Source: Parelaphostrongylus tenuis | Lineage: Eukaryota; Nematoda; Chromadorea; Rhabditida; Metastrongylidae | Assembly: GCA_019055375.1 (NCBI GenBank) | Contig: JAHQIW010000772.1 | Span: 1-64,000 of the forward strand | Direction of reading: 5' to 3' | Length of the DNA: 64,000 bases | Part shown: one piece after another, positions 395 through 58,026 of the stretch | Layout of the letters: each line of letters begins with the position of its first letter | How positions within the stretch are numbered: position 1 is the first letter of the stretch | The notes under the pieces: model-generated | Told to the model about the DNA's origin: nothing | Databases searched by the model: none | The model's input: only the letters and a program-made list of their open reading frames with translations | Translations under genes and position numbers: made by a program

Positions 395-1005
395 TGCGGC
401 TGGCTCGGGGCAGACCCGCGTCTTTCGATATTTTCTCGACTAGCTCAGTTCTCTCGGGAGCTCTTCATCAGAATTCACAGAGAGATTACTCGAGGACTGA
501 CGTTTTTACGCTCGATGCCAGCTCAAATTTTCAACCCTATACATCCGCGAGTTGAGTGCACTTCGATGCTCATTGGCTATGCTCACTTTTATCATAACTT
601 ATTAAGCTTTATCTCGGAGTTGACGTTTTTTGTTAGACGCCAGCGTCTCAAATGTGTCTTTTACCATTGACACCATTATCATTCCGACTTTATGTAGGAG
701 TGGTCAATATTGAGCCTTTCATCGATTATACATGGTTAGCTAACGATACATTTTTCGTTTTTTTTATCGTGACTGTCATGTGATTTGGTTAAGGGCTGTA
801 TCTCTCGGGGGATGAACTCATCCTTTCACACTTCTGTATGTGTAAGGCTCCCGAGAGAAACTGAACCTGAAAACAGATCGACAGACCGGGTTCTGACCCG
901 CGCTGAAGTCTGTAGGACGAAAACGGTTGGGGCTGTACAAAAGCCTTTACAGAAAACATGACATGTTGGCTCAAAGAATGATTGAAAGGGATGTCATATG
1001 AAATT
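395..1005. mobile_element. Hammerhead-bearing inverted-arm element, locus 1
   Basis: The left arm (about 405-480) holds the sequence that lies inside the hammerhead in the other copies: a degraded GGGCAGAACCCGTCGTC block, then CTTTCGATATTTT and GTTCTCTCGGGAGC. The right arm (about 830-1005) is its inverted counterpart, running from CTCCCGAGAG through a decayed hammerhead to ACATGACATGTTGGCTCAAA. About 350 bp of unique sequence lies between. Both ribozyme cores are broken, so this is an old copy. It belongs to the subfamily whose stem II is GUC/GAC. No protein-coding capacity is visible, so it is non-autonomous. Confidence 0.5.
888..945 (+). ncRNA. Decayed hammerhead ribozyme, locus 1 right arm
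   Basis: It aligns to the family hammerhead. CTGAAG replaces the conserved CTGATGAG, stem II and its loop (GTCTGTAGGAC) and GAAA are kept, and stem III and the 3' side of stem I are scrambled before the conserved GGCTGTACAA. Loss of core bases at the CUGANGA box predicts no cleavage. Its value is as a family member showing the arm's outward orientation. Confidence 0.5.
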
Positions 1006-1639
1006 ATGACGCGTCCCGGTCCTAAACAAAGGCACTCGGAGAAGAAAGACCCCTCCAGATAGCTTGAAAAGTTCCGTCTCTTACATACCTGAAGCTTGTT
1101 CTATTATGAAACCAATTGCATATCGCTTGCTAGGACCTTGAAAGGATGATATAATACATGTTAACTCTGTTATTAAATTAATAAACGATTATCCGATTTG
1201 TGAAGATCATTAGTGCCGATTGTGTCTATAATGTCTTATGAAGGATTTGTATTTTGAATGATTATATTATAGCTAAATGATTAGCAATTCAATTCTATCA
1301 GCCTTTTTTCGTGTTGCCAAGAAAGACCCTAAATTAGTCATCGGAAGAACATTTCTCACATATTTTCTGGAAAAAATAGAAGAAGAAGCTAGCCAAAGTC
1401 TGTGTCTTATCCTGTTTACGCAATCACATAAGTATACTTATTTGGAGCTCCAAGCGTGTCCATGTCGATCTTACTTGCTTTAATGGGGCTCTTAGGTACG
1501 CGCGAGATATGGTCCGGCGCGTGCTTTCCTCATATTTTCCAACCCACACTCATCAAACATATACTACACCGCGTGTGCCTTTCTTTTGATATAATAGTGT
1601 TCCCACGCATGAATGATTCAATGGTGCGACCATTTCGGA

Positions 1640-3130
1640 AAGTGAGAGGTACATGGCTCGTATATGGCACCCTACTTTCATCAAACAAACACTCTTCTAC
1701 ACTAAATCAACATGTCGGTCCGTGTAGATAACGTATTCAGTCCGCCCTGCGGTTTCATAGTTGGTATGGAGAGGGGAAGTAGGTGGGCTGGAGTAAAGTA
1801 ATTCATAGTGACGCATAGTTTTGGAAGGAGATTTGTGTGTACCGCGCTTGCAGGTTTTTTGTCTCCCCCTCGCGCAAGGAGGGCGATCTATTGATCGCTC
1901 AATACATCAACTCCGTCGTGTTTGTCTGATCTATCTATACCCCTGGTGCCGTGCATTGACGACGCTTGCTCCATGCTAGGGTGGGTTTTCTAACTATGCG
2001 GCTATAGAGTCGATTAGCTGCGGGGCCTACCCGTCTCGCCGACTATATTTGGTATTCGCTACCACCGACTCTGCATAGAAATTAAGTCGACTGTTACCTA
2101 CTGCTTCATATAGCAATCACCGTCTCTGCCGCGTCAGGAGACATATTTTAGAATACAGGCAGTCTTCTGTGCGTGTGCTCTCACCAACTCTTTCATTATA
2201 CAGAGACGGTCCATAATATAATCGGGTTACGAAAACTAGTTGTCGTCTTAGAGTATTTGGGTGGCGTTTCCAATAAGAGCCTCAACAGGATTGCTCTTAA
2301 GTCTCGTTTCTTTTCAAACAGTCCGTTTTTTTGTATAGCTCGTACTGACATTTTCTCATATGATTTCTCTGTGTATCCCATTGAATGCTTGGCTATATTT
2401 TCGAAACCAGTTTTGCGGGATTCTACACTCTCCCTCCATCCCGTCTCTGTACATACATATGACTCGCCTGTTTCGACTTAAGCTACATGTCTGTGACCTT
2501 TTTTATTACTAGCGTCCGTTTTTCGGGCATGTTGAGGAATGAGAAGAAAAGATAGTAACCAAATCTTCTTAGAGTACTCGATAGGACTTTCGTCGGTGCC
2601 AGTTTTGTTATATGCAAACCGTCCTCGGTGTAAGCTTATTCATGCATGTTCCAAGAACGGTAGCCTATTTGTCTTTGGTCATCTCACGGCTATGAATGTA
2701 CTCTACGCTGAACTGTCATCTCAGAAATCTAAAGCAGTTTTTATCCAGCTCCTCTTGAGAACAGATAATAAAAACAATCATCTATATAGCATACAGAAGA
2801 GTAACGACCTTGCCATCCATGCACTGGTGCCTGCCACTCCTCTTTCGACATAAAGACATTAACCAGGTCAAGTGCCAGTCGGCTGCCCCATTGCCCTCCC
2901 TCTCCTTTGAGCATAATATTTTCTAGGAACCATTTGAGAGATTGAAAGCAGAATCTCAGCTGCGCTTTTCCATAATGATGAATTCGTGAACAACTCAGTC
3001 GGCAAGTCAGGCATGTTGCCGCCTGTATGCTGAACCTGTGTAATCAGACGCAGCCTGATGTTGTATCAGAAGTTCAAGTGCTGGCTTGCACATGCACGAG
3101 CCGCCATTCGACATGTTAGTGTATCAGAGC
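1640..3130 (-). mobile_element. Penelope-like element copy 1, degenerate
   Basis: Read on the minus strand, conceptual translation in shifting frames gives Penelope-like order. A palm region with YIDDC (the RT catalytic Tyr-x-Asp-Asp box) lies near 2775-2790. It is followed by a GL-x-ITK block near 2600, a linker near 2160-2480, and a GIY-YIG endonuclease remnant (VGETGRP-like near 2030, KHDGVD-like near 1910). An upstream block resembling the RT region before the palm reaches about 3130. Frames are broken many times, so it is a pseudogene. The 3' flank near 1640-1740 matches the 3' flank of the copy at 13.9 kb. This copy lies head to head with the copy at 3950-5240. Confidence 0.65.
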
Positions 3131-3949
3131 TAGATGAACGTTAGACTGACTCCATTACTTGTACGCGTTGTCTCGGATTCGGCACTTACGTAGACGGTCC
3201 AGTGTTAGGACATGTAGATTCTTTCCTCTGAACCCATATGTTATGGTTTTTATACCTATAGCTAAAGGTACTTTGAACAGGACATGTTGGGTGATTTGAG
3301 TTTTAAATGAGAAAGTGGTAGACGGTCTTAAGCCTACCACTTTTGCCGTATGGACCCACTCATTGTTTAATTGCGGTTTTGCCGTTGAATTCCTTTACAG
3401 AAGATGATCGTGTAAAATGAAGCATCTTAAAGATGCTTATTCGTTATTGCGATATCTAACTATCGAGGAATTCACAACAAATTCGCCACCTTATCACTAA
3501 TTGATAGCCTTATCCTTCCTTCCCTAATCAGTTCTCAAGCCTCTTTCATGCCACGCTTTGTAGTTCGGCGAGACTCGATTGAAATCTTTTTGTGCGAAAG
3601 TGAGTGAAAGGTCTAAAAGTCTCGTCCACAAATTTTTGGGACAAAACTATCAACCTCCTCGGTGGGGTCTTTGTTGTCTGTAGAACGGCTGAGGAAATGG
3701 GTGGTATTAGTGCAAACTTCTACTTGCTGCTCATTCTTAGTAGTCTCTTCAGCTTTTTTACGTTGATACTTGCAAATCATGTATGTCACATGCAACCTTA
3801 CGCAAGGACACCCTAGTAAATGGGTTGGTTTGCAAATGGTAGAAAGCTTGGACCCCCAATTATAATATCGAGCGCGCTAAGCTTTTGATAGAACGGCAGG
3901 AGAGCTGTACACATGTACGGCTCTTGTCGACTGGGCAGAGTTATATGGT

Positions 3950-5240
3950 CCTATTAAAAGAAAGCGTCTACTGAACTGCTCAATCTTCAGATGGTCGGCG
4001 AGAAATATTATGCTCAAATGAGAGGTGTTTGGCAATGGTGAGCAACGAGTGGCACCTAGCCTGGGCGATTGTTTTTATGTCTAATGTGGACAGCACCAGT
4101 GATAGATCTCCGGCCATTGTCTCTACTGTAGGCATACAGACAATTGTTTGGTTATTTGTTCCACTCAAGAGAAGCTAAACAATTAGTTGTTTTAGATTGA
4201 TGAATAGAAACAGTTTAGAATATATGAAAATTCACCAGGAGATACCAAAAAGGACGATTGGCTCCCATTCATGAACGTGAAAATAAGCTTAACTGAGAGC
4301 GGCTACATAGCAAAGTGATACCGAAAGCAAAGCAAGTAATTAAAATCCTCTCATCATCTCCTCACACCACGAAAAAGGCGCTGATGAAAAGCATGTTTCG
4401 AACAGCAACCAATGTATGTACCGGGGAGAAGAGACCAGAGAGTAGAATCCGTGAAAGTGACTCGGGAAATAGCCACTTCTAATGAAACACGAATTGTAAA
4501 CATCTCAGGTTAGGTTAACAGAAAATAATCATGCCTTCGAACGAAAGCTCGAATGAAAGGAAAGTCCCGTTCATCCTCCCGTTTTTTCAAATAAGATTAG
4601 TACAGCTATAAAACGTTTCTGAAAAGAGCGAGTTTCAGAGCTGTCGGTGACCATTACTGAAATACCACCGAATACTCTAAGACGCCAACTAGTTGTGGAC
4701 AATACCGCTTATATGATGCATCTGTATAACCAAAGGTTTACAAAATATGTCCTAACGGCAGAGACGGTGATTGCATGAGCGTATAGGTACAGTTGATTTT
4801 GACATCGAAGCCACCATCCTTACGCAGGAAAAAAACATCAGCGACGAAAGGTCTTGGAAGCGCTTTGGCCTTGATACACACCAATCCAACCATTAAACCG
4901 CAGGGAGGAAACGCCTCGTTATCACTCGAAATTTTATTCAGAATATGAGGACTTTTGTTTTGTTTGGGTAGAGGTGCAATTAAGGCCTGTGTGATCTCCT
5001 TCAGGTGATCTCCACTGTGGATCATTCAGTGGACCGGCATATAAAAAGCGGTACAATATTTGAGCGTGACTTTGAGCTTGATGCGATCAAATTTAGTGTC
5101 TGGGTGATTTTCTCTACTAAAGAATAATTAATGGAGGTGTTTGACTGATTAGACCGCGGACGATTTGACCTTTCCAGCCTCTGAAGAAGGCGAACTGCTG
5201 AAACGTCAGCTGTGAAATGAAGTTTATTGTAACACCTCTT
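3950..5240 (+). mobile_element. Penelope-like element copy 2, degenerate, with 3' hammerhead-like motif
   Basis: Translation in several frames recovers RT palm sequence around 4000-4160. The catalytic YIDD box is changed to an HTDN-like form near 4130. Next come the downstream RT block (MFRTAT-like near 4400) and then, near 4790-4900, the second half of a GIY-YIG endonuclease (VDFDIE, KRLVITRNF-like). The central YIG segment is missing: the sequence jumps from the Cys-rich linker (NGRDGDC-like, 4755-4775) straight to VDFDIE near 4790. About 330 bp further on lies the 3' motif at 5175-5212. A dead copy. Confidence 0.7.
5175..5212 (+). ncRNA. Hammerhead-like motif at Penelope 3' end
   Basis: CUGAAGA is followed by one extra A, a 4-bp stem (GGCG with UGCU, two wobbles) with a 3-nt loop, and then GAAACGUC. 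That is the hammerhead order CUGANGA, stem II, GAAA, minimal stem III and a GUC cleavage triplet. The flanks CAGC-CT and AGCTG can pair as stem I with one bulged base. Penelope-like elements are known to carry small hammerhead motifs in their terminal repeats. The extra A before stem II departs from the classic core, so activity is uncertain. Confidence 0.45.
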
Positions 5241-5677
5241 GCGTGGCTTAAAGAAGATAATCAGGTGATTATACTAAACACACTGTTGGAATTACTAAAA
5301 TTGGGTGTATCGAATAGTTGCTTGAACTTTTTAAGAAAAGTTCTGCAATGCTGGAAATGTAATGAACGAGAAAACAACACTTTGTTTTTTTGTTTCTTCA
5401 GTCGTCCGTTCAAATATACCCTTCTTCGAAACAGATCAAAACAGAATAACTCTTTCAAACAGTTTTGATTTCGACTACCGAATGATAGTTCAAATATTAA
5501 AAACGGCACAAAAAATTAAGTTTTTTTCAGAAGAGCCCGAAACAGGACACGGGTAACGCAAACAAACGTCCTTGCACGAGGAGTTTCATTAAATATTTTT
5601 TCCTAAGTTTCTGTCTATATCTTTGCACATGATCGATAGTCCGGGTAACCGCTGATTTTAATAAAATGCTTGTTCCT

Positions 5678-6090
5678 TCCTTCGAGTGCTTTAATCAGAC
5701 CACGCTCAAATTTCAATAGATCCTTTCATTATTATTTGAGCCAACATGTCATGTGGTCTTGGTAAGGGCTCTTGTACAGTTCGAGACACGTGTTTCGTCC
5801 TTACAGACTCATCAGCCGGGCAGAACCCGTCGTCTGTCGATCCTTTCATAGTCAGTTCTCTCGGGAGCGTCACACTCCTTATATATAGTTATCGACGACC
5901 CTACGCTTTACACTCTATGTCAGGTGAAGCATTCACCTAACACAGAGTGTTTTTGCTAGCTGGGTGGTATTTTTATCATATTATACCTTTCCTTCGAGTG
6001 CTTTTATTAAGACCACGCTCAAATTTCAATAGATCCTTTCATTATTATTTGAGCCATAGAGTGCGAAAACACTCTGTGTTAGGTAAATGC
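5678..6090. mobile_element. Hammerhead-bearing element, locus 2, rearranged
   Basis: The left arm runs from 5678 through an outward (minus-strand) hammerhead at 5772-5827 to the internal CTCTCGGGAGC block near 5860 and an internal region shared with locus 5 (ACTCCTTATA). Instead of a matching right arm there is a direct duplicate of the outermost 65 bp (5678-5742 repeated at 5992-6057, nearly identical). A 23-bp inverted repeat at 5931-5954 and 6066-6088 (TAACACAGAGTGTTTT and its complement) surrounds that duplicate. The structure suggests a second, solo-arm insertion or a replication-slip rearrangement. Confidence 0.55.
5772..5827 (-). ncRNA. Hammerhead ribozyme, intact core, locus 2 left arm
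   Basis: On the minus strand the core is CUGAUGA (5815-5809), stem II GUC/GAC with loop UGUAAG, GAAA (5795-5792), then the self-complementary ACACGUGU as a loopless 4-bp stem III, ending in a GUC cleavage triplet. Stem I pairs poorly: GCCCGG faces UCGAAC, leaving about three pairs next to the core. All invariant core bases are present. Loopless stem III hammerheads generally need to pair as dimers to cleave. Confidence 0.65.
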
Positions 6091-6094
6091 TTGT

Positions 6095-7440
6095 TTTATG
6101 AAAAAATCCTGTGATATGTTGTATTAACGGAGGAAAAGAAAACATTTTGATGTTGTTGTGATTAGCCCTTGTTTGCACATGACAGTGGGCTTTGTGGCAG
6201 TTATATAATAAAACTTTAATACTAAGAAACCTTTATTGCTACGAAAAGATAATTTATCACTGAAGGAGCTGTTGTAAGCGTATTTCCCGTAAAAGGGGAG
6301 CCTGGTGATTTCTTGAAGGAACACTACTCTCAATGCGTAGGCTGCATTCCTGGAACGACACCGCAGCTGTGTTGGTTAGTTGACGCATGCTCGCTTCGTT
6401 CATCCTGCCGCGCGGAGCTTTCGTTGTCCGCCGTAGAGAAAGACTGAAACTTGACTAATCAAACCTTCATACACATAACATCAACAAATCAACAGTATTG
6501 ATAAATGCACCTAAGAATTAGATGAATAATACGCGATTAGAAGCAAAGCATTAGAGTGAAGCAGTTCTTCGGAGCCATGTATGCAAGAAATAGTGAGTAA
6601 CAATGAGTCCTGATGCTTGACAGCTTCTCTGAAAGGGCTGCTGGTATAATGTTATGCGCCGCGGTAGGATAAGACGCAATGGCATCAAATGCAACTCTAA
6701 TAGGGCATTACAGTGAGTTATTTAAGAGATTCTAATACGAAGTGACAAGTGAGAGGACATAAGAGACTGACCTAATAGGAAGCGGGAAGTTCCAGATCAT
6801 CCGGATGGCCAGAAATATGTTGATAAGGCTATACCTATTAAAGTGCACAAGAACTGGATTGGTATGGCAATAGAACCTCATGCAGATTACTTACCAAGAG
6901 AGCTTAGCATCAATCGAGTTTTGTGTTAATCAATGTAGAGGTGGACGGATAAGATGAGCAAGAGAGCAAGCAAAGAGACCGGATGCTGGCGACTTTGATT
7001 GGGCATCTAGACGAATACCATACTATAGTAAGCATAATCATTTGCCACTCTTCTGCAGGTGTTCGCCTGTAACTGGCTGACAAAATACAGTCCAGTTACC
7101 AGCTGAGAACCGAAAAATCAATCATCCGCCATCCGAAGCCACTAACGGCCGCGATAGCTCATTAACTGATTATTTGATTATCTATAATGAGCATATTCAA
7201 GATTTAATGAGACGCGATAGAAGCAGGCATGGATAAAAGGGAAATAGCAGTTATCTGAGTGAAAAAATTGTTATGGCAATTCTAATTCTTTTTCTATTTT
7301 TTCTTAGGATATTGTTTTCTAACATCTCATCGGAGTATGCTTAACAGAGTTCGCATTCATCATTTGGGAAGCAATTTTTTGTCGAGTTTTATGACCGATG
7401 CTATAGATTTAGTTTTTTTTCGGTCATCCGGTGTCAAATT
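6095..7440. other. Stretch without recognised genes
   Basis: About 1.3 kb of AT-rich sequence. I see no coherent coding frame, tRNA-like element or member of the repeat families found elsewhere in the window. Short open frames here are not supported by splice sites or composition. Confidence 0.5.
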
Positions 7441-7449
7441 AGGAAAGCG

Positions 7450-7780
7450 GTGACCGACTGTTGAACTAGAACTTTCTATACGAGTGTTCGTAAAACATTC
7501 GAAAGTGTGAGTCTCTAGCTGGTGCACTACAAACTTCTTTCTTAAAAAAACTTTTTAGAAACTTGTGGCATTCAAAATAAAATTGGTGTGTTACACCAGC
7601 ACTGCACTCTAAACTATTACTTGATGAAAGCAGAAAAAGCATATGAACCGTCTGGAGAAATCCTTTAGTATCAGTGCTATGCACGTTCTTTCGAGTTTCT
7701 TCTAAGGCGGAGGAATAATCTCTAATTAAAATAACAAGAACTCGCATCCCACATGTGCAACGCGCCAACGCGGTCGACTG
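7450..7780. repeat. R3 foldback repeat fragment
   Basis: It shares its order of blocks with the inner part of the R3 element at 58.4-59.3 kb: AAAAGCATATGAAC, then CTTTAGTATCAG, then CACATGTG-like near the end. Identity is patchy, indicating an old copy. An open frame of about 100 codons on the minus strand lies wholly inside the repeat and was not called as a gene. Confidence 0.4.
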
Positions 7781-7964
7781 ATTACCGCGAGAAATTCACG
7801 GCCAGCGCCCTCATTTCCCCCACCCCTCCCCCTTCTCCTGTGTAGGCCCAGCCCACAGTCGAAAATATACTGTAGCGGAACGGCTTTTTCAGAAATAAGA
7901 GCCTTTGAAAATTCTAGTACTTTTACTGAACTTTTCGTATTATCTGTTTTATATATCCTAAGAG

Positions 7965-8060: not shown

Positions 8061-8251
8061 ATTCGCGCTACCACTCATTCCTCAACAACTCTATGTTAGC
8101 TGTCAGCTACCAACCTTTAATAGGTGATGATGGGTGTGCGATTTTGCTTTCTAAAGGAGAAAAGATGAAGGAAAAAGCTTTCGGTGTTGATCAATCCCTG
8201 AGAGATGCGCCATGCATTCCTATTTAATTTTCGGCTTCGTTTGAGGTGATT

Positions 8252-12090: not shown

Positions 12091-12104
12091 TTATAGGACT
12101 TACC

Positions 12105-12150
12105 GACTGCAGTACAGTGTTTCAGCCTTGCAGCCTCGCGGTTGCGCGAT
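12105..12150 (-). ncRNA. Decayed hammerhead ribozyme, locus 3 left arm
   Basis: On the minus strand it reads CCGCGAG in place of CUGAUGAG, a stem II of GGC and GCU around UGCAAG, an intact GAAA, then ACACUGU and CUGCAG in place of stem III and the GGGCUGUAC tail. The CUGANGA box is lost, so it is not expected to cleave. Confidence 0.4.
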
Positions 12151-12444
12151 GCCTTTCGTCTGAATCAATGCCCTATGGTAAAGAATCTTCTTAAGTAAAG
12201 AAATCTTCAGCGAACATGCTGCACTGCCACAAGCAAAGTGAAAATTCACTCCACGTACTGCAGCGTCAATATATCACTGTATGCCAGTGACATGATCACC
12301 GCACATTGCAGTGATTAACCGTCATTAAAATTCAGTAAAAAAAATAAATCATCACCTCACACGCAGCAGTGTAGCATGCTCGTCAACATTTCCTTTATGT
12401 AAGGCGGTTCTACCCAAAAAAGTGATCGGCTCAGACGAAAGGCA

Positions 12445-12500
12445 CCGTGGAACTGATGAGGCTAAAAGGTTCGAAGCACGTGTATTGCGTTGTATGAGTG
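12445..12500 (+). ncRNA. Hammerhead ribozyme remnant, locus 3 right arm
   Basis: The core CUGAUGA is intact at 12453-12459. It is followed by a decayed stem II, GAAG in place of GAAA, CACGUGUAUUGCG for stem III and the cleavage side, and GUUGUAUGAG. The change of the last A in GAAA removes the invariant A-U pair at the base of stem III, so activity is unlikely. Confidence 0.5.
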
Positions 12501-12849
12501 CATATATAAACGTCACGCAAGGCTTAAAGAATATATTGTAGAAAGGTGAATGTAGCATGTATCTAAGCGTGTAACTATTACAATCTTCACCCTGTTCTTC
12601 GCCTTGTCCAAAGATGAAAATCCTGATAAGCATCAAGTTTGATATTCATATTAACAAGTCTTTGTAACAGTAGAGCGGATGAAGTTATCTCAGCGAATTT
12701 TCAAATTGGAATAGGCTTTGTGAATTCGTACTCCTGCTTTCCGACGTTGAAAAGCGCTGAGAGAATTGCATATAGTTCTTAGGCATCGAGTGGGTTTTTA
12801 AAACGATAAAGCTTAGGGGGAAAGTGAGCCTTCATGGGTTTCTAAGTGC

Positions 12850-18500: not shown

Positions 18501-19110
18501 CCCGACTCACGAAGTGCACTAGTAATCGATGAAAATATTCAAAGTTATGGATGATTAGCGATTGCATGCAGTATCAATTCCTATCAACCATTCATTGATT
18601 TCTTATTACCAATCACTGAAGTGACTTTGAGTGTTCAATTTGATGAGGGGATGTCAAGACTGAAGGTTTATATCCTAACACCTTATTTCAGAAGTGCACT
18701 TCGATAATTCTATTGCTTGACAGATTTACACCGGGCAAATTTGGTTTTGAAAGTATAATTATGTTATGCATTTGATGATCAGGTAGTTCTCTATTTGGTG
18801 CTATATATTGGAATAAATTGCTTATCGCTCAAGGAATAAAGATATAAATGGCAAAATTACGAACAACAACAAGCATGAGAGGATGGGAAATTCAAAAAAC
18901 AGTTAAAAATATAAACTTTTCGTGGTCATTTGGTTTTTCCTTCAAAGAAGTGGGGTGTTATAGACAGTATGGGAATTTTAAAATTGCTCATAGCCTTATT
19001 GGGGTTTGTTCTATCGTATTTCACCATTCAGCGACAGTTGTATACCCTTCCATGTTGTTGAAAATCTATTGTTCTTTAGAAATGACAACATTCTCGTTTG
19101 ACCACGTTGT

Positions 19111-20310
19111 ATAGCAAACCTCCCGAAGGAGCTTTGACATCTTCTCTCGAATTACATGATAATTTAGGCAACGCACATGATTGATGACCTTAGCAATTGG
19201 CATCGCAGAGGTTCGAAGACCTTAGACAAAAAATGGTCCAAGTGGCGAGGACCGCACCCAGCTGCCGCCAACCTCAACAGTCACTGCGGTCGTTTGACAT
19301 TATCCACACGGCCGTTTGACTTCACCCGGACCACGTCACCTCAAATCGTTATCGATCCATTATTGCTCTTTCTACACAGTCCTCGTTGCCGTTCATCTGC
19401 TTGCTATCATAACGTTGCATTCATACAATTCTCAGATGAACTCAATAGAACTGCGAGCGGAATATAACACTTACGTGGCGGAGCAAACTCACTTAGGCAA
19501 TGCTCGACCTATTAGCGCGGTCAAGGAATTCTCTTTATAAACGATCAGTAGTGACCCCACTGCTATTACAACGTATCTCCTTGATTTTCTTATTCAGCAA
19601 GTGCGAGGTTGTTATTCTGAAGATTTATTTTGTACAGATGAACGGTACAGTGAACTTGATTGCAATGGCTGGCGGTTCGCAAACGTCCAAACGGGCTAAA
19701 CGTTATAAACGATGATTGATTTTCACAAAACTGCTCTTGCGCCCTGTAGGTAGCGAGCAGGTAGTATCAGCCCACGTCTCTGTTGTACATCAAGGTAATA
19801 GAGGGAGCACTAAATCGAAAAGGTAAGCACGGTATTTAATGTCCGCTATCTGGGTGGTGGCTTTTTTGAGATGCTCAAATGCGTCCTCTGCAGCGCCATC
19901 TTCTGTCTAATAGTTCCTTGACATCGTATTCCATATTCATTGAACTCAAGATGTAAGTGCGAGGTGACCTCCATAATAAGCAACATTGAGTTCATTGAGT
20001 TCTTTACCTTTCTACAATAGATTCTTTATAAAGTAGGTTTCGTCCATGATTAAGAGCCCGATCAATCCCGCTTCATTGAGTTTACTGAGCATTGTCCCTG
20101 CCTCAGTGGTGTCTTCAGAAACGGTGATAATATTATTCGCAAAACAAAGTTTTGATAGGATTTTCCATCTACACTTATGCCCTCTCGTAGTCGTCGACAG
20201 CACGATGTTTTCACAAGCCGTAAACAGATCTGAAATTTTGGTAGTTTCGCCACCATCACTTCGGCGAAGATCCAAGTCTGCTATCTCCATCAGTTGATAA
20301 AATGTCACCT
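19111..20310 (-). mobile_element. 3' part of an RTE-like LINE, family 2, degenerate
   Basis: Minus-strand translation in several frames recovers LINE RT sequence. VDGKSYQNFVLR lies near 20160 in one frame, with FANNIITVSEDTTEAGTML (a FADD box changed to FANN) next to it. Then come FEHLKKATTQIADIKYRAYL and ETWADTT near 19770. The 3' part has no clear frame and ends at TATAGC next to 19111. The same terminal sequence ends the fragment at 31634-31930, which fixes the 3' boundary. Non-functional. Confidence 0.6.
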
Positions 20311-29455: not shown

Positions 29456-29551
29456 TGTTCCGAGTGTTTTCTCAAGACGACGCTCAAAATTGAATATATC
29501 TTGTGATTATTATTTGAATCAACATGTCATGTGTTCTGTTATGCGCCTTTC

Positions 29552-29602
29552 TACAGCCCGATACACTTGTTTCGGTATTGCAGCCTCATCAGTCGAGCAG
29601 GT
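29552..29602 (-). ncRNA. Hammerhead ribozyme, intact core, locus 4 left arm
   Basis: On the minus strand: stem I GCUCGA with UCGGGC (five pairs plus one G-U), CUGAUGA at 29592-29586, a weakened stem II (GGC facing ACC), GAAA, then ACAAGUGU, a partly paired stem III, and a GUA triplet. All invariant core residues are kept while stems II and III have each lost a pair. Confidence 0.6.
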
Positions 29603-29760
29603 CCTTCGTCTTTAGCCAATTTTCTCTTGTGCCCTCACATCCTCCTATAATGAGTAAGAAACGCCGAACGATGTACATCAGCGACTTCAAGTGAAAAATC
29701 ACTAGATCGGCATTTTTTCACACTAGATTACCCTGAGAGGATAAGCTAAAGAAGAAGGAT

Positions 29761-29812
29761 CTGTTCTATGACGAGGCTGCAAGGCCGGAACACGTGTATC
29801 GTGCTGTACAAA
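29761..29812 (+). ncRNA. Decayed hammerhead ribozyme, locus 4 right arm
   Basis: AUGACGAG replaces CUGANGAG (the first C is lost), stem II GGC/GCC with loop UGCAAG is perfect, GGAA replaces GAAA, then ACACGUGU and GUA lead into UCGUGCUGUACA. Two core changes predict no cleavage, but the perfect stem II defines this subfamily. Confidence 0.55.
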
Positions 29813-29924
29813 AGTCAAAACGTGCTATTGAAATCGTTAAGATTTGTGCTATCGAATCCTTATTGAAAGTGTGAGTGAAAACTGTGTCCGACTAGAGATA
29901 GCTGAGTGTGGAATGAAATCTTAT

Positions 29925-31158: not shown

Positions 31159-31518
31159 AGAGCATAATTTTATTTGTGAGAATTATCTGTCCAGCAAATA
31201 AAGTCGGTTTTCATTTGTCGCCTGGTTTCTATTTCTCCTTGGATAGCGCAGCCAGTCTCTAGCCCGTCACTGAAACGACCATAGGAGTTTTCCACGGAAC
31301 AACCTCGTAATCTCTTCCATAATTTGATCACAAAATCTAAAAAATCAATGATTTCAACCCAGGTAAACGTCGCTTACTTATTAGCAAAACTTAAACTTAC
31401 TTGAACAAATTACTGCTTACTATTCACTACAAATTTCTAAGTCACTAACTTACTTAAACGAATCGCACTTCTTCAGAACATCTCAAAACTTGTCGTGTGG
31501 TCTGTTAGGAGCTCTTGT

Positions 31519-31567
31519 ACAGCCCGATACACGTGTTTCGTTCTTACAGACTCGTCAGTCGGGCAGA
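31519..31567 (-). ncRNA. Hammerhead ribozyme, best preserved copy, locus 5 left arm
   Basis: On the minus strand: stem I GCCCGA/UCGGGC (six perfect pairs), CUGACGA (31558-31552; the variable seventh base is C), stem II GUC facing AAC with loop UGUAAG (two pairs plus a C-A mismatch), GAAA (31539-31536), stem III ACAC/GUGU without a loop, and cleavage triplet GUA. Every invariant core base is present. Hammerheads with such a short closed stem III usually act as dimers in tandem or paired transcripts. Confidence 0.75.
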
Positions 31568-31633
31568 ACCCGTCGTCTTTCGATATTTTTATAGTCAGTT
31601 CTGTGGCCTCGTGTGCTCGAGAAAGAAAGTATA

Positions 31634-31930
31634 TAGCAAACCTCCCAAGGAGAGTTTTGTTATCTTTTCGGGAATTACATGATAATTTAGACAACGCAGA
31701 TTGTCCATGACTTTAGAGAGCAAGTGGTATTGAAGTGGTTCGAGGACCATAGACGGAAAATAATTCAAGTGGCGAGGGCGGCACACATCTGCCACCACCC
31801 TCAACAGTCAGTTTGATGGCGGGGCATCATCCGAGCGGTCGTTTGACTTTATCCGGGCCACCTCACCTCTAATTGGAATCAATCCATTATTGCTCTCTCC
31901 ACACAATCTCGTTGTCGTATACTTGATTGA
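31634..31930 (-). mobile_element. LINE family 2, 5'-truncated 3' end
   Basis: It matches 19111-19395 over its whole length, and both end at TATAGCAAACCTCC. A common 3' boundary with different 5' ends is the hallmark of target-primed LINE insertion. It sits inside hammerhead element locus 5, so it inserted after that element. Confidence 0.65.
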
Positions 31931-32073
31931 TACCCGTTGAAGCTTTTAAATAAAACGAGTTCTCGTAGAGCGCTCTATATTTCGACATTGGTATTTATTC
32001 CAAGGATGAATCCCTATAAGGAGTCTAAGGCTCCCGAGAGAACTGACTTCAAAAATATCGAAAGACGACCGGT

Positions 32074-32127
32074 TTCTGCCCGACTGGCGAGTGTGTAAAG
32101 ACGAAACACGTGTATCGGGCTGTACAA
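32074..32127 (+). ncRNA. Hammerhead ribozyme with one core change, locus 5 right arm
   Basis: Stem I is GCCCGA/UCGGGC (perfect). The core reads CUGGCGA, so the invariant A at position 6 is G. Stem II is partly paired, GAAA is intact, and ACACGUGU and GUA follow. Only one invariant base separates it from an intact core. Confidence 0.65.
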
Positions 32128-32284
32128 GAGCCCTTACCAGACCACATGACAAGTTGGCTCAAATAGTAATGAAAGGACGTTAGGGTATAGTTGTTATATA
32201 TTTTTACAGCTGAGGTAAAATAATATGCTCTCAGTAACTTTCTCTACTTTAGGAATTTTCTTCCCTCGTGTCAAAACAGTCGTA

Positions 32285-44700: not shown

Positions 44701-44713
44701 GGTGGTAAAAAGC

Positions 44714-50229: not shown

Positions 50230-50480
50230 AACTCCAATGTGGTCAGCCGCAGCTGGTTGTGGCCGTCCATCAGTAAACACAGACCTGGTCGCCCTCTGCT
50301 TCCCAAGGGTATGTTATCCTCCACGTTCATCGCTTGCATGCAAACACTATGCTGAGTATTACGGATCATTCATGGTCGGCATTTGCGAAGATGAGTCGAA
50401 TACTTCTGCATACAGAAATACTCTGTGCAATAAGCCATAGACGTGCTAAGAAGAACTAGGCAGTAGTGCATCTTTCTCGT
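50230..50480 (-). repeat. Dispersed repeat R5, copy 2
   Basis: Minus-strand partner of 28440-28640: ACCCTTGGGAAGCAGAGGGC, then GTTTACTGATGGACGGCC and ACAACCAGCTGCG. The plus-strand open frames of 70-117 codons across here are explained by the repeat. Confidence 0.5.
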
Positions 50481-50497
50481 TTGTTCGTTATTGTTAC

Positions 50498-50946
50498 TCA
50501 ACATTGACTTCTTGGAAAGTATGCCTTCGAAGTGGTCGACTGAGGAAATGCGAGTCAATTTGGCCTCCCTAAGCTTCGATGAAAGGGAGACCTTAGAATT
50601 TTCGGCCAGCATTGCATAATATTGTGCCAAATCGCAGAAAGAGGATAATGATGAAGAGATAAGTGATAGATAATCGTGAAAGGTGCTGTCAACTAGAATA
50701 TTACGTTACTCTTTGGTAAGGATAGGAGGTGTTTGAGAAAACGTGAGTATCAGGTATAAGGAACTAATCGACTTCTACGTACTCTCCATGCCCGACTTTG
50801 AGAGCTGATTGTAGCACAAAACATATCCATGACGATCAAAAGAATGGGTTTGAAAAGGGCGCTCTCTTTCTCGGCATTATGTAAATTATTGGACAGAAAT
50901 ATAAGCCTCCAAAGAAGTATTCTCTTAACATCTCCCTTACCAGCAC
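50498..50946 (-). CDS. Candidate pair of host exons, function unknown
   Basis: The exon at 50946-50779 follows TGAATATAG and reads AGKGDVKRILLWRLIFLSNN, LHNAEKESALFKPILLIVMD and MFCATISSQSRAWRV. The exon at 50692-50498 follows AATATTCTAG and reads DSTFHDYLSLISSSLSSFCD, LAQYYAMLAENSKVSLSSKL and REAKLTRISSVDHFEGILSK. Phase is kept with an 86-nt intron. The second exon has regular heptad-like leucines and is the most protein-like stretch in this half of the window. No named domain is recognised. Confidence 0.35.
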
Positions 50947-51059
50947 CTATATTCAGAAAAACATACCTTTTATTCCTCTTCAAGACTTTAGTAATTATTC
51001 GACAACTTGATTTTCGAGAACATGAAGGGTGTATTTCTAAATAGGTTTATAATATGCTA

Positions 51060-51490
51060 TGAAAGTGGAGTTAATATTTTATTTCACACTCAAACATCTT
51101 TAGCTGGACATAGCTTTGCATTCACACTTCCAATAACCATTCGAAAGCACAGATCTCAATGAGTTCATTGATATATTTGCTTCTGAAAAAGAGATTCTAG
51201 AAAACTGTTACAACTAAAAAATACTGGGTTTCGCACTGAACGTGCTTCACACGCCACATGTGAACTGCTCTGCGCGATTTACGAGGCACCGAATACAACT
51301 CAATATTCCTTCTGCTGTAACAACGTATTAAGAAGTTCTCCTCAGACACCAAGCATATTGTTGATATCGTTAAGATTTGAGCTATCTAATGGGTATAAAA
51401 GTCTGAGAGAAAAGCACTGTCCAGCAAAAAGTACTTGAGTGTGCAACACATTTTTTTACTTATTGCTACGGCTCTCTAAAAGGCCTTTTT
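51060..51490. mobile_element. R3 foldback element, complete copy
   Basis: The left arm (51070-51230: TTTCACACTCAAACATC, GCTGGACATAGCTTT, CCATTCGAAAGC, ACAACTA) and right arm (about 51310-51490) are inverted copies. On the right, minus-strand landmarks are GTTGCACACTCAAGTAC, TTTTTGCTGGACAGTGCTTT and CCCATTAGATAGCTC. The centre holds CACGCCACATGTGAACTG. No coding frame. This is a MITE-like or foldback design with arms of about 170 bp. Confidence 0.6.
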
Positions 51491-51524
51491 TTAAAAAGGC
51501 AAGCACATCATTGAGGCTCTCGAA

Positions 51525-52160
51525 ATTTGAGCTATAACCGGTTATTTAAAGGCGATGACTTGAATCCAATTTTGCGCCGATTCACATACCTCGTACAATT
51601 TACTCAATCTCTTGCGAGGGCATGCGGCGATGAGTACATTGGCCAAACGGGTAGACCACTATTCCTCCGTGTAAAAGAGCACCTAGCTGGGTTACGCAAC
51701 TTTGATTCAAAAACTCCACTAGGCACGCATAGGAACCAAAAACATGTAGGGGTAATGTTCGGAGTCAAATTCACGTTCATCGCACAGGAATCAAGAACAT
51801 CTGCGCGTAAAACATTAGAAACCTTTTGGATACATAACAAAGGCTAGAAAATGAGCCGAAAAGAGGAGTGCGTCGTAATCACGCGTGACCTCGAACCATA
51901 CCTCAGGCTGATTTTTCCGGCCCGAGTGAGGCACAGCCCACTGATGCACTGACCCTAAGCGGCTGGTCTTCAATTAATAATTGATAGACCCAAACATCGA
52001 AACGGTGAGTGTTTTGTAAATTAGTTTTCTCTATACGATCCAAAATTCATTTCTAATGTTTCTGCTAGGGTCATGGAGGTTTTGGTTTAGTGGATTGTAA
52101 ATGCGATCTGAAGAAGGCGACACGCCGAAACGTTAACCACCTTGATTATTGTAATATTCA
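51525..52160 (+). mobile_element. Penelope-like element copy 4, 5'-truncated endonuclease and 3' end
   Basis: An open frame (51527-51847) contains a GIY-YIG endonuclease: CGDEYIGQTGRPLFLRVKEH, then TPLGTHRNQKHVGVMFG and ARKTLETFWIHNKG. After one in-frame stop the family C-terminus continues (MSRKEECVVITRDLEPYL). About 200 bp of 3' flank leads to the hammerhead-like motif at 52108-52135. This is the most nearly open endonuclease in the window. RT sequence is absent, so it is 5'-truncated. It lies between two R3 copies. Confidence 0.8.
52095..52145 (+). ncRNA. Hammerhead-like motif at Penelope 3' end, best stem II
   Basis: CUGAAGA (52108-52114), one extra A, stem GGCG/CGCC with loop ACA (four perfect pairs), GAAA (52127-52130), then CGUUAACC, giving a 2-bp ACGU stem III and a GUU triplet. 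Layout as in the other three PLE ends. The extra A before stem II and poor stem I pairing make activity uncertain. Confidence 0.5.
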
Positions 52161-52249
52161 TACTGCATTACTAACTCTGTTGTTATATACTTCGCTGGTA
52201 TTCAATAAATAATATCAATCACACCTCGGAACGGATAAACGAAAAAAAA

Positions 52250-52560
52250 TATTCATCACATACCGGTGCAAGGTATGCGTTTCGCAAGTGAAATGGAATC
52301 TTAAGTTCAGTGTTACAGCGCAATGAGAAGTTTTTTTCTTTGAAAAACCAAAAGCATTATTGAATTTACTAAAATTTATGCTATTTGGTACTTACTAGAT
52401 TTTTTGGTGGAAAGCTATTGCCAGCGAAAAATGCTTGAGTGTAGAGTTATATTTTCTTTACACTGTTACAACGTTATACAAAGGCCCTTTAAGAGGTAAA
52501 ATGCACTATTCGAATTTCTAAGCTATCGAATGACTACTATAATGTCTGGAAGAACAAGTT
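52250..52560. repeat. R3 repeat, two partial right arms
   Basis: TTGCCAGCGAAAAATGCTTGA then GTGTAGAGTTATATTTTC, and CTAAGCTATCGAATGACTAC further on, are right-arm landmarks. They appear twice in tandem with partial loss. Confidence 0.5.
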
Positions 52561-53029
52561 GAATTAGGATGCTAATAGTGGAAGTGGTGTATTCTTCGCA
52601 ATAATGAATGCGCGCTCTTCCTACACGTACTCCAACTACATACTTCAATCACCTTCACAGACATCTATTAAAGGTGCCTAGTAGTAAAAGGTGTGCTTTC
52701 TACCTACGTTCCCGCAAGAGAGGCGATACAAATGAACGTGAAGGGTTGGAAGTCCACCTTTTTTCATAAGGCTGTGGTATTAATGCTGAAAAATAAAAAT
52801 TTTCAAAACAAGAAGTTATTCTTCTAATCAAAAGGACCTCTATAAAACTTTTACTTTTGATGTTCTATTCTTTACTGACGACAAGATAGATCTGATCGAT
52901 AAACTTTACCTACAATTACCGATAAAGCAGCATGACCTCCAAGCGGCGGGATAACATTGTAGGCTTGAGATTTAATCATTGTTTCGCTCCAACGGTCCTC
53001 TATGCTAAGATTTCAAAAAACCAACCAAT

Positions 53030-53135
53030 TCGTCGAAATCCTCGAGAATTGGGCTATCGAATGATTAGTAAAATTTGCTGCTGAGCCATAACTAAGCTTC
53101 AGCCGAGCAAATGAAGCAATTAAGTGTCAAACATA
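53030..53135. repeat. R3 repeat fragment
   Basis: TCGAGAATTGGGCTATCGAA, TGATTAGTAAAATTTGCTG and AAGTGTCAAACATAATTTTAT are right-arm landmarks of R3. The repeat ends where the candidate terminal exon's poly(A) signal begins. Confidence 0.45.
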
Positions 53136-53137
53136 AT

Positions 53138-53143
53138 TTTATT
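53138..53143 (-). terminator. Poly(A) signal AATAAA
   Basis: Canonical hexamer on the minus strand, placed directly downstream of the candidate terminal exon's stop codons. Close spacing is plausible for nematode 3' UTRs. The hexamer alone is common in AT-rich DNA. Confidence 0.3.
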
Positions 53144-53157
53144 TTGGTTGTCCATTA

Positions 53158-53242
53158 TTACTCGTCCTCATTGCTGTCTTCGTCTTTAATGTCGTTCAAA
53201 TCGTATCTTTTCCGTGGAGTGTCGATCAAATGAAGAACTTCG
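53158..53242 (-). CDS. Candidate 3' terminal exon of a host gene
   Basis: The frame reads EVLHLIDTPRKRYDLNDIK, then DEDSNEDE and a double stop TAA TAA. AATAAA lies at 53143-53138, about 15 nt beyond the stop. A short acidic tail, a tandem stop and a close poly(A) signal make a coherent 3' end. The acceptor (CATGAAG before 53242) is weak, and upstream exons were not identified with confidence; an open frame at 53514-53290 is one possibility. Family unknown. Confidence 0.35.
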
Positions 53243-53299
53243 CTTCATGGCGCCCTTTTATACAGAACAAGTGTCAATGATGTGATTGCCTAATGCCTT

Positions 53300-55900
53300 T
53301 TTTGCGCTGAATCTTGCTGTAGGTGATATGATATCGGCTTGCACAAAGAGAAATAATGTTTTGAAACCGACTGCCCTTTACGTTGGCACTGCCGAACAAC
53401 AGTACTTCCTTGGATGAATAAGCTTTCACAAGCAAGCACTCTCATTAACAGTTCTATGCATAAAAGCATCACCGAGTGAACTTCTTCATTCAAGCATGTT
53501 TCACTAAAAAGCATTTGACTCGAACGACAGCGAGGGCCTCTGAAGAGGATTTAGCAGTCGAAAAGTCAGCCATTCATTAAAATGTCATTGAGTGACTACG
53601 TACAGTACTTTTCAAACAGTAAAATAGCACTTAATTTGTGGTACCAATCTAAGTGTCGTGCTCTCATGGTGATAGGTTCATTCACACAAGAAAGTTTATC
53701 TTTTCATAATGTCTTTGACCAAGACGTCATTATGAACTGATCGAAATTTGTGCTATTTTAATAAGCATAACGTGTCTTCCTCCAGTCTAGTTGAAAAGTA
53801 TCCTTTTTCTAGTTCAGTTTCTGAAACTTATCAGCGCATTTGTGTACTAGTAATATAGTTTATCGGTGCGATTCAGGCAGGTGTCTATCAGATGTATTGC
53901 TAAAGTACATCATAAACAACGTTAAAATTCTTTTTGAAATATTTTTTTGAATCCCAGTGCTGTGATAGACGGACATCTCATTTTGTGAAGAGCCAGGATG
54001 TAATCGTTTTCAGATTATCGTTGTTCTTTACTCTCTTACGATATAGTTTCCATTCTTCAAATCAGATTGCTGCAGAAAGTTTGCTTAGAACTAGCACAGA
54101 CCTCTAAGCTTGATTCTACAACTTATTGCATGAAACTGGCCGTTCTCAAAGCCTAAGGATAAAGCCTTGATGTTCATCAGCTCTCAAGGGTTTGCAATGT
54201 TCGACTCGTCTTCATCGTTGAAGAAAATTGAGTGCATAATTGGTCTACACAGTGAACCGCGGGTGACGTGGAGATGTATCGAATCAGTGTTGTTATTCTC
54301 TTGAACAAGTCTGTTATCACTTTACCGAGCTTGCAAGGGCCTTGAGTCTGGATCGCGAGATTAAACTAGTGAGCACATGTACCTGAGGAATGGAAGGGTT
54401 TGTGAGCCTACAGGGTGGTATTCAGCAAGCTACATGCTTGCTGGGGGTAGTCTTGATCAGAACGAAATAGTGCATCACGACCACTTGTGTAAGACTCCTC
54501 TAACTACTGTGATGCATGCATGCCCTTCGTCGCTCTATCAAAACAAGATCCTGTAAATCTTGAAGAGGGCTCGTGATTCTGCGCGTATGAACCGGAATCC
54601 TGGCGCTGTGTATAACTCAGTCATGACTTGTCCAGAAATATGAAGTCTCCTTAGTGCTTAAATATCTTAGACCACCAACGGTGACTTCGATTTATCACGT
54701 GATGCTGGATTTCGCGACATCTACATCACAAGATCAGCGTTTGCCTATCTTCACTACTTTATTTAGCTTTCTTTCCGGCTCTATTGCTTCACTTCAGCTG
54801 GAAAGGTCCACTAAGAGTTCTTATTCTGTGACAATCCTCTGTCAAATTGTCATTTTTTGAGACTCATTAGATCCACACGATTATCAAATCACGACATTCG
54901 TTATTGTGAGCGAGAGGCAAGTATTGAAGCCAGGTAAAGAAGAAAACACAAAACATATTTCTTCACCGGACGCTAGAGCAAGCGACCATTTCTAACGACA
55001 GAGCCAAGTCGAAGCGCGTCAGTGTGCCGTGAAACCTGGCTATGACGAAAAACGTCACATAGTACATAACTCAGGACTTTCTAGGTTTCAGTGGTCGAGG
55101 AGGCGAAACCATTCACAGTGTTCAACTATGTAAAGGGCCACTTATTCACGAGGAAACAGATTCATCAAAGGTTGTCGAGATACAATTGACGTATATGTAG
55201 ATGTTGCGTGAAGCTGATGCTAAGGACGATCGCGAAACGACATGATTGTTACTGGAAAGTTGAGCGACGAACTCCTTTTCTTCAACATTAGAAAAGATTT
55301 CGTCTTGATGTAATTTTGAATAATTTTATTTGGTCACTTGCAGACCATGAGGCTCAGCTTATGTGAACGGTGTTCTGGATTTCATGCTATGAGTGATGAC
55401 AATTAAACTCATTTACAGCTCCATATTTATTACAACGGCAGGCTACGCTGCGTTTTTGATGCCAATTAAAAGAGGAATAAGTAATTTTTTTGTTTATTCA
55501 ACATGAGAAAAAGCGCATCATTTCTATTCTCTTCTATTCATCGTTTCTTTGCGGTTGATGGGGTAGACAGAAACCTTGACATTTAACATGGTTTTTTTTA
55601 GTTCGTACACGGAAGAATGAGTTTGAAAGTTTCCTGCTTATTTTAGTAACAAACAGCTGCTTCAGCACAAGAAATAATTTCAGCTAGTTGAGTCATTCTA
55701 GTCCTTTGCCGAAGTCTACGATACAGGTTCGATCTCCTCCAAAGCGTTTCACAGCGCCTTTCTGATTTGATTTTTGTTTTCAGTCCTATATACACCGTTT
55801 CAGTAACACATCATATCTCACCGTATCTCTAACTGTAACACCGTAACACAAACGATTTAATCATTTTACCACTTAGTCCACAATCTTTTCGCATCAACAA
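53300..55900. other. Long stretch without recognised genes
   Basis: About 2.6 kb. A somewhat GC-richer part at 54.2-54.6 kb has no sustained open frame. I recognised no RT block, tRNA-like unit or hammerhead core here. Confidence 0.4.
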
Positions 55901-56017
55901 GCAGTGAACTGTTGAAAACTGGGAGTCTTTTTTGCTATAAAATCTACGTATATCGAAGAACTTTCAATATCAATCGATACCGAAAAAATCTGCTGTCAAT
56001 AGTGATTAAGGTGATAG

Positions 56018-56096
56018 GATGCAGTGATAGAGGATCGAACCAGCAACTTTCTTTCTTTCGCTTGGCAACACTAACCACTCGGCACGACGGACTGCG
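56018..56096 (-). repeat. tRNA-like SINE head
   Basis: The minus strand reads CCGAGTGGTTAGTGTTGCC (A box), then GCTGGTTCGATCCTC (B box) about 30 nt later, with an expanded, GAAA-rich anticodon region between. The plus-strand open frame through it (55912-56157) is not a gene. Confidence 0.55.
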
Positions 56097-56435
56097 CTGC
56101 CGCGCGCGGTGGCGAGGCGGAGCTAGCAGTATGAGCCTGGCGTACCTAAACAGTTAATCTAGGCTTCCTATGAAAACGAACACTCCGGATAACCACTCTT
56201 ACCCGAAGCGGATGGGACTACTTAAAGATTACTCTCATTAGAACGCAGCCAACATTTACTGTTGTCTCCTAATACGTCAAATGGATATTTAAGAGTCGAT
56301 GTTCACATCAGACGTTCTTCACCGTAGAAGATGTGGATGAACAATTGGCTATTGCTTGAATGATGTTAAATAGGCAGGCAAGATGTGCCTGATAATCATT
56401 TCTTGAGCCATGCATATGGTCTGTTACATGGCAAC

Positions 56436-56490
56436 CTATAGAATCCGATACACGTGTTTTCGCCTTGACAGCCTCGTCACCCGGGCAGTA
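56436..56490 (-). ncRNA. Decayed hammerhead ribozyme, locus 6 left arm
   Basis: On the minus strand GUGACGAG replaces CUGANGAG (first C changed to G). Stem II has lost a base, GAAAA replaces GAAA, and ACACGUGU with GUA then UCGGAUUCUAUAG follow. Not expected to cleave. Confidence 0.5.
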
Positions 56491-56651
56491 CGCTTCCTCT
56501 TTAGCCATTCCCCTCGCAGGAACTCAAGCTCTATATAAAGTTGGTGCAGACGAACTTTTTACATATGCCATTAAGAGAAAATATCACTGAATGGACAGTG
56601 TTTTACACTCGATTGCTCTTGGATGGTATTGTCAAAAATAAAGATGAAGAG

Positions 56652-56704
56652 TATCGACCGACTAATAAGAGTGTTAAAGTCGAAACACGTGTATCGGGCT
56701 CTAT
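56652..56704 (+). ncRNA. Decayed hammerhead ribozyme, locus 6 right arm
   Basis: CUAAUAAG replaces CUGAUGAG. GAAA, the palindromic ACACGUGU, GUA and UCGGGCU are perfect. The loss of both G residues in the first box (G to A changes) is the kind expected from CpG or UG decay. Confidence 0.55.
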
Positions 56705-58026
56705 AAGTTGCCCTGTAACAGACCACATGCGTGGCTCAAAAAATGGTTGTCAAGCATGTTAAAAGTTGGGTGTGATTTTAACAAAACACAAGAAACGAAA
56801 GGAAAGATAAGCAGCAATTACCGACTTTGCTATTCCAACAAATATACGTATAAACAGTATATATAAGCAAAGCACAAAACTAACATGAGAAGAGAAATAA
56901 CAAATTGTTGTGCTAAGGAAATACTAGCAAAAAGAAGGCAAAGGAGCGAACAAACAATATGGGATGCTATACACTACTATAGATTGATAGATTAGTGAGA
57001 GGATTTCAACCAATACCCTCTGTTTTACCATTCTACGCCATGGTCCGAGTTTCACGATCGCCAATTTGTGATCCGGCTTAGCACGTTTACGCATATTCAA
57101 CGCATTATAAACCGCGAACAAAAGTCAAACTGGCGTTATTCAATTCGCTTTGTACACAGCACTCAGAAATCGCTAAACGTCATTCATATTGTTGTCATTA
57201 CCGTCATCAGTATTATCTCAGGTACGTCTTACAATTTTAACCATAAAAATATTGACTGTTTAAAGAACTGCTCCTTACAGTGGTTAGGTGTGTGAACTGA
57301 ATATTCAAATCAATTACGAAGATAAATGGGAAGAGCAAGAGGGAAAAAGTAATTTAAGTTGGAATCGTTGAAGAACGCTGGATGCTATGATTCAATTTTG
57401 CTACTCACAGGAATCCAAAAACAGTAAAAAAATAGTAATGATGAGTCTCAGATGAGTATCACATGACCTCTTTTTGCTTTAAGAGCGACGTAACAGAACC
57501 AAATGTAGATATAGATGTTACTAAAATACATGGTCAAGCATTCGGATAGAAGTTGGATGTGCAATGAACTTTATAGTTTGAGTGGTACGAAACAACAGAG
57601 CTCGGTGTTTCTAGCGCTTCGGATTGAAAAGTCACGAGACATTGACTAAAGTTGTGGGTGAGATATATTCAGCATTCATATGCGTGTGATCTTCGACTGC
57701 TCTGGGTTAGATGACTATTAGGTGATTCCATAGTAGGTAAGGGTCTTCAGAAGTACACATGTTTCTTATAATGATCTCAAAATGATGCCAAATTTAAACC
57801 AACAGTGCCAAATTTTAAAACATTATGGATACTCTAAAAACATCAACTACTTTATTGACTAGACATTTCGATAAATGAATTTACTGACATGTTATAACAA
57901 TTCAAACACCTCTCGATTTAATATAATTAAACAAGTATTTGCTATTCTTCTAGAACAAAACGCAGTTAATAATACTCATGAGACAAATGTAAAATATCAA
58001 TTAGCTGGAATCAGCTGTTCTCCTAG

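Follow-up and report, generated by a model that had tools for sequence, protein, structure and literature searches.

What kind of element carries hammerhead ribozymes in inverted arms, and how do such arms come to lie in pairs? The question is raised by a stretch of 64,000 nucleotides of the Parelaphostrongylus tenuis genome (contig JAHQIW010000772.1, positions 1 to 64,000; hereafter the window), in which a reading of the letters alone, the sequence-only reading, had described six loci of two long inverted arms around a short non-coding centre and had proposed a non-autonomous Penelope derivative resembling a foldback element or a miniature inverted-repeat transposable element (MITE). Our analysis does not support an inverted-terminal-repeat design: the arms of a pair are pieces, different in length, of one repeating, retrozyme-like unit. 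We consider it probable, at about two chances in three, that each inverted pair arose in one insertion event, with a Penelope-type reverse transcriptase (RT) priming complementary DNA (cDNA) at both 3′ DNA ends of a staggered break. The claim is limited to Penelope-like insertion of the unit, which was most likely moved by Penelope-type enzymes.

The inverted arms were recovered by a repeat search, and a covariance model (R1) detected ten hammerheads in the window: four of the six loci have one in each arm, and the other two have a single one. Seven of the ten are members of the alignment on which the model was trained (A1), and those starting at 12092, 12433 and 29750 lie outside it. A regular expression recovered the parts that had been described, namely CUGANGA, a 3-bp stem II, GAAA, a loopless stem III of ACAC/GUGU, GUA and UCGGGC, the last pairing with GCCCGA to close stem I. 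This is a type I hammerhead, in which stem I is left open, as in animal retrozymes. Its base pairs covary: among 77 arms there were 34 double-change cells compared with 10.4 after shuffling (none of 500 shuffles was as high), and standard pairs made up 88.1% of the paired cells against at most 41.4% in slid registers. By the regular expression the core was intact in 42 of the 77 arms, and intact with ACACGTGT in 34. At gathering scores, Rfam reported a tRNA alone in the window and no hammerhead; this tRNA gene lies at 63929-64000 and is cut by the window end. Small hammerhead variants linked to Penelope-like elements (PLEs) reportedly cleave as dimers, and the hammerhead of the unit, with its loopless palindromic stem III, would do the same.

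The genome searched comprises 481.5 Mb in 5105 contigs. With up to three mismatches allowed, a 31-letter pattern spanning core and tail gave 10,635 matches (5290 + 5345), and its reversed control gave 0; a pattern of 28 positions with 17 fixed letters gave 35 places, and none in its reversed control. Neighbours less than 1 kb apart among the core-pattern matches listed formed four outward pairs, one direct pair and no inward pair. Of the 35 exact hammerhead matches, the first 20 make up loci L009-L028. When a single copy of the unit served as the query, 6187 first-look candidates emerged, of which 40 were scored, and L032-L051 were picked from the 40 scored contigs, mostly with a second match nearby and a few with one. 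As this choice inflates the share of paired arms, the less selected subset (the window and L009-L028) is reported apart.

The loci were decomposed with a profile of 370 positions, in which the unit restarts at about 321. The unit is about 320 nt long and non-coding, within the 170-400 nt of animal retrozymes, and the two arms of a pair are opposite-direction stretches of it with the RNA 3′ ends outward. Adjacent arms in the sampled loci were outward in 36 of 40 cases, inward in three and direct in one. No open reading frame (ORF) of at least 130 codons overlaps an arm in the window, which supports the earlier description of a non-coding element. Arms less than 150 nt apart were taken as a pair. 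In the 36 outward pairs the gaps between arms ran from -43 to +51 nt, many with overlaps of a few nucleotides; the arms abut or nearly so, and no separate centre was common to the loci. The supposed short non-coding centre is therefore not a shared part of the element. At the fifth locus of the window, the stretch between the arms (31607..32020) lies outside the element and contains an unrelated repeat (31632-31918, 77% identical to window 19110-19392); this pair, at 31.5-32.2 kb, is absent from the 36 because it is wider than the 150-nt cut-off. The arms of the 36 pairs are unequal, from 58 to 471 nt, and none of the 101 arms in the sample is longer than 471 nt (about 1.4 units). In two of the inward cases (L009 at 4779, L035 at 433-441) the neighbouring copies have a few bases in common, which looks as though one of them had inserted at the end of the other.

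The outer ends of the arms follow a rule. Over the 101 arms they were bimodal, with 45 short, 45 long and 11 elsewhere; the long-end peak is clipped by the end of the profile and lies, in the sequence, about 45 nt past the short peak. Among 31 classifiable outward pairs, 29 joined one short and one long end, two were long/long and none was short/short (five more were unclassed), which departs from a half-half expectation with p ~5e-7. The rule held in 13 of the 15 pairs of the less selected subset. Alignment of the outward arms showed that the longer outer end repeats the start of the unit. In addition, 13 of the 101 arms were flagged as crossing the unit boundary (L033 not cleanly), with ends 17-80 nt upstream of it; L015 and L022, flagged further out, are apparent chaining artefacts of decayed arms. 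The 45 long ends and the 13 boundary-crossing arms together show that units follow each other head to tail in the template, which could be a multimer or a circle.

Target-site duplications, which the sequence-only reading had named as something to look for, were significant across 30 pairs. The mean score was 7.63 compared with 5.19 for mismatched flanks, a value reached in none of 20000 permutations, and 9 of the 30 pairs scored at least 9 where 0.48 were expected. A thirty-first pair, the second of L024, was dropped with its flank beyond the locus, and two of the 30 are neighbouring pairs of L009 that share flank letters and are not independent. The length of the duplication varies among pairs (for example, L032 has 12 bp and L041 has 13 bp), and many pairs have no clear duplication. 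At L009 (4400-5400), the stretch ATATTGTCTCAATA recurs in near-identical form on both outer sides of the two pairs and once more between them, as if the second insertion had reused the duplication of the first.

The arms of a pair also share a source. A variable stretch of 12 nt allowed 22 of the 36 pairs to be typed (14 were untyped), and in 21 of the 22 both arms belonged to one subfamily, where permutation gave a mean of 7.4 matching pairs and a maximum of 16, and none of 20000 permutations reached 21. The exception, L021, mixes subfamilies and is also long/long, and is therefore likely to be two insertions. Deviations from the majority letters were shared at 0.060 within pairs versus 0.016 between loci (31 of the 36 pairs usable). 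That the arms are independent solo insertions in random orientations, a doubt raised alongside the earlier description, is ruled out by these subfamily tests and by the orientations (36 outward, 3 inward, 1 direct).

The same anatomy was found in the coding PLEs of this genome. Among 150 GIY-YIG places, scored and listed out of 1723 candidates, coding PLEs within 12 kb of each other formed 21 outward pairs, no inward pair and two direct pairs. All 13 outward PLE pairs whose ends were compared (10 fetched and 3 young copies) joined one short and one long end, at a median of 48 nt apart. They are flanked by direct repeats of 7-14 bp, read with no shuffled control and weakest in C626, C2832 and C4780; the flanks differ on the two sides, so the pairs are not read palindromes. 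In the three young copies the inverted arms are 98.8-99.8% identical, and one of them has a frame of 893 codons with RVT_1 and GIY-YIG domains. Both domains were found in the coding PLE of L029. At L031, positions 328-3084 hold a young Penelope insertion, a near-perfect 2.7-kb palindrome with different flanks and a duplication. For a PLE ORF of this genome 77 relatives were listed, the best at 73% identity; most of those named belong to Necator americanus, Ancylostoma ceylanicum and Haemonchus contortus, at 48-63%, which makes a strongylid nematode the most likely host.

Measured by eye from the hammerhead cut, the unit has its short site about 70 nt and its long site about 115 nt further on; the distances are about 61 and 104 nt in the PLEs, whose hammerheads are likewise of type I with a minimal stem III. 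We read this likeness of end geometry and orientation as a sign that one kind of integration machinery serves both the unit and the PLEs. The unit has the integration signature of PLEs (outward inverted arms, one tail, a short target-site duplication) and, at about 320 nt, has no ORF with RT and GIY-YIG. The idea of a Penelope derivative keeps its Penelope-like integration anatomy; mobilisation by the copies in the window found no support, the hammerheads seen in 21 coding copies being of another type. Within the window itself lies a decayed Penelope copy in head-to-head form (2533-3877 on the minus strand, 3962-4783 on the plus strand), with a hammerhead core of the Penelope type, CTGAAGAAGGCGAACTGCTGAAACGTCAGC, at about 5181 (+). 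Loci L090, L092 and L094-L101 hold a second Penelope subfamily, whose 3′ region has a hammerhead of the form CTGAAGAAGGCGTATTTGCCGAAACGTCAGCC. Pieces of the unit lie about 200 nt or less from a Penelope 3′ end at L030 (2371-2435) and L092 (reverse strand, 407-470), perhaps by chance or through a common target preference.

The course of events that we propose would begin with transcription of an RNA longer than one unit, as is suggested by the long ends that run into the start of the next unit. A Penelope-type GIY-YIG endonuclease/RT would make staggered cuts about 8-14 bp apart, a spacing taken from the duplications. Copying would start at the short site on one DNA end and at the long site, about 45 nt downstream, on the other. 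Both cDNAs would head for the 5′ end of the RNA, halt independently and be joined where they meet. In the joined product the hammerheads and RNA 3′ ends would face outward, the arms would differ in length with no centre between them, and there would be a single tail and a duplication. The template of both arms would be either a single source RNA or siblings made at the same locus, in keeping with the shared subfamily. The ribozyme may also take a part. A more daring version, which we regard as rather doubtful, would have PLE integration obligately two-template: two RNAs dimerised by the loopless palindromic stem III, one copied from the short site and the other from the long site, with RNA pairing as the job of the ribozyme, and tiny non-coding hammerhead RNAs, at ten thousand copies, keeping only that part.

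Several observations weigh against single insertion by double-ended priming. No PLE with the ACACGTGT hammerhead was found in 23 PLE 3′ regions inspected, 21 of which have a hammerhead core (all of one set of 3 and 18 of another 20; ten other end pairs were only aligned to the first PLE). Solitary arms, outside any outward pair, make up 29 of the 101 sampled, and L021 and L025 are long/long, though L021 has mixed subfamilies. Of 32 pairs that could be compared, 30 have one arm or both closer to another locus than to the partner, for which age differences could be the cause. Shared private variants are clear at some loci and near zero at the first pair of L009 and at L018, L019, L039, L041, L042, L045 and L051; with none shared at several loci, one RNA molecule and two siblings are not distinguishable. 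A hairpin in the start region has 86% paired cells versus at most 46% in slid registers, yet a single double change and no covariation, and its folds in four sequences were mixed (z from -3.42 to +0.58). Template 5′ ends cut by the ribozyme were also considered and rejected: of 15 PLE 5′ regions fetched, the five informative in the sense orientation start at reference positions 271, 227, 91 or less, 281 and 200, where the cut is at 237. For the unit the same idea was set aside, as the boundary-crossing arms stop 17-80 nt upstream, only loosely around the cut (58 nt).

Self-priming, in which one cDNA would turn back on itself at the 3′ end and serve as the template for the second arm, seems unlikely. 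It has been proposed for head-to-head PLE copies (PMC3846280), and it suits paired arms of one subfamily as well as the two young PLE copies whose arms are 99.8% identical. It predicts equal 3′ ends, however, whereas one arm is regularly about 45 nt longer; self-priming thus accounts for the shared sequence and not for the difference of the ends.

Quite unlikely is the view that no separate non-coding element exists and that the arms are 5′-truncated pseudo-long-terminal-repeat (pseudo-LTR) pieces of an ORF-bearing PLE with the same hammerhead. The insertion anatomy is indeed that of the coding PLEs, whose hammerheads share type I and the minimal stem III. But upstream of the unit boundary the crossing arms (13 of 101 flagged, L033 not clean) contain the end of another unit and not an ORF, and the longest arm reaches only 471 nt. 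An autonomous relative, another thing the sequence-only reading had wanted sought, was looked for in the 23 PLE 3′ regions, and no coding copy there has the hammerhead of the unit.

A fixed inverted element, transcribed and reinserted whole, would explain why L009, L015, L018 and L020 align over arms and centre at 72-77%, but with inner junctions that vary by locus and arms of 58-471 nt in the 36 pairs we hold it to be very improbable. A foldback element or MITE driven by a DNA transposase, for which inverted arms and target-site duplications might speak, has practically nothing left in its favour, since it is contradicted by the end rule, under which the arms of a pair differ by about 45 nt at their ends, by the variable duplication length, the unequal arms and the head-to-tail unit, and no matching terminal inverted repeats were found around a centre.

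Double-ended priming on a retrozyme-like unit remains our preferred account, and the six loci of the window can be described in its terms. A hammerhead in each arm, as originally supposed, is present at 12.1-12.5, 29.5-29.8, 31.5-32.1 and 56.4-56.7 kb, whereas the first two loci have one in a single arm. The locus at 395-1005, thought to be two-armed, has a substantial right arm with a short 3′ end (872..1005, plus strand; hammerhead 883-949, core decayed) and on the left only a remnant at 408..461 (minus strand), a partial match found by blastn of the left stretch against other arms. What had been taken for a rearranged arm at 5.7-6.1 kb is really one long arm (5681..6057, minus strand; hammerhead 5763-5835), about 1.2 units in length, with a long 3′ end. 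Eleven identical letters, AAATGCTTGTT, flank this locus at 5664-5674 and 6085-6095; they were seen by eye, and the script found none. They are possibly a duplication, and the letters resemble an internal stretch too. The 27 nt before the right copy of AAATGCTTGTT resemble, again by eye, a short piece of the unit in the opposite direction.

At the third locus a decayed left hammerhead arm lies at 12092..12161 on the minus strand (R1, E 9.6e-5; nhmmer 12112-12158, E 0.022), and the right arm, at 12367..12502 on the plus strand with hammerhead 12433-12506, is truncated at its 3′ end. The fourth has a left arm with a long 3′ end (29457..29734, minus strand; hammerhead 29540-29611) and a right arm truncated at unit position 278 (29722..29814, plus strand; hammerhead 29750-29820). 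In the fifth, the left arm (31487..31606, minus strand), whose match stops at unit position 304, contains the intact-core hammerhead 31506-31578, and the right arm (32021..32178, plus strand; hammerhead 32063-32136) has a short 3′ end. At the sixth, a left arm with a short 3′ end (56384..56637, minus strand; hammerhead 56427-56500) is abutted by a right arm with a long one (56640..56794, plus strand; hammerhead 56642-56715).

Animal retrozymes, as presented in PMC7229834, consist of short repeats in tandem, ranging from dimers up to large multimers; their mobilising enzyme is left open there between long interspersed nuclear elements and PLEs, with PLEs suggested as carriers and called a strong candidate. 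Our element resembles them in being non-coding, with one type I hammerhead per unit of 170-400 nt and with co-resident PLEs. It differs in its arms, which are inverted, reach at most about 1.4 units (101 arms) and often form outward pairs; the word 'inverted' does not occur in the main text of that paper. Direct tandem dimers or multimers, as expected of retrozymes, are not the arrangement of the sampled loci (1 direct case of 40, and 13 of 101 arms flagged as over one unit).

Rotifer EN(+) PLEs, according to the description in PMC3846280, have inverted pseudo-LTRs, a tail optionally on one of them, and duplications of 8, 9 and 10 bp, for which the authors favoured self-priming on an antisense template (Adineta vaga). 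Head-to-head inverted arms, one-tailed insertions and target-site duplications are common to those elements and ours; unlike them, with RT and GIY-YIG encoded, our unit of about 320 nt has no ORF. In the account of the Anolis Poseidon element PAc (PMC11167929), both DNA strands were cut and extended in vitro, with two internal starts that define the tail. Two putative start sites and a hammerhead near them are likewise found here, whereas PAc is an autonomous element, active in vitro, and PLEs are described there as tandem or partial-tandem repeats. The portions of PMC7761336, PMC12910113 and PMC8490949 that were available report no inverted hammerhead element, and no report of a non-coding hammerhead element with paired inverted arms was found among titles and the beginnings of abstracts, subscription journals being mostly outside reach. 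Inverted one-tailed Penelope insertions are thus already known, and a non-coding hammerhead unit with such anatomy was not found described.

The transposition mechanism of PLEs is said to be relatively little known (PMC11167929). The end rule, seen in 29 of 31 pairs of the unit and in 13 of 13 coding pairs, offers a testable model of it, with priming at both DNA ends and two start sites, and the 10,635 core matches make this genome a large natural data set of such insertions. The Penelope signature on a non-coding hammerhead element, together with that on the coding PLEs, is a direct genomic argument for PLEs as the movers of retrozymes.

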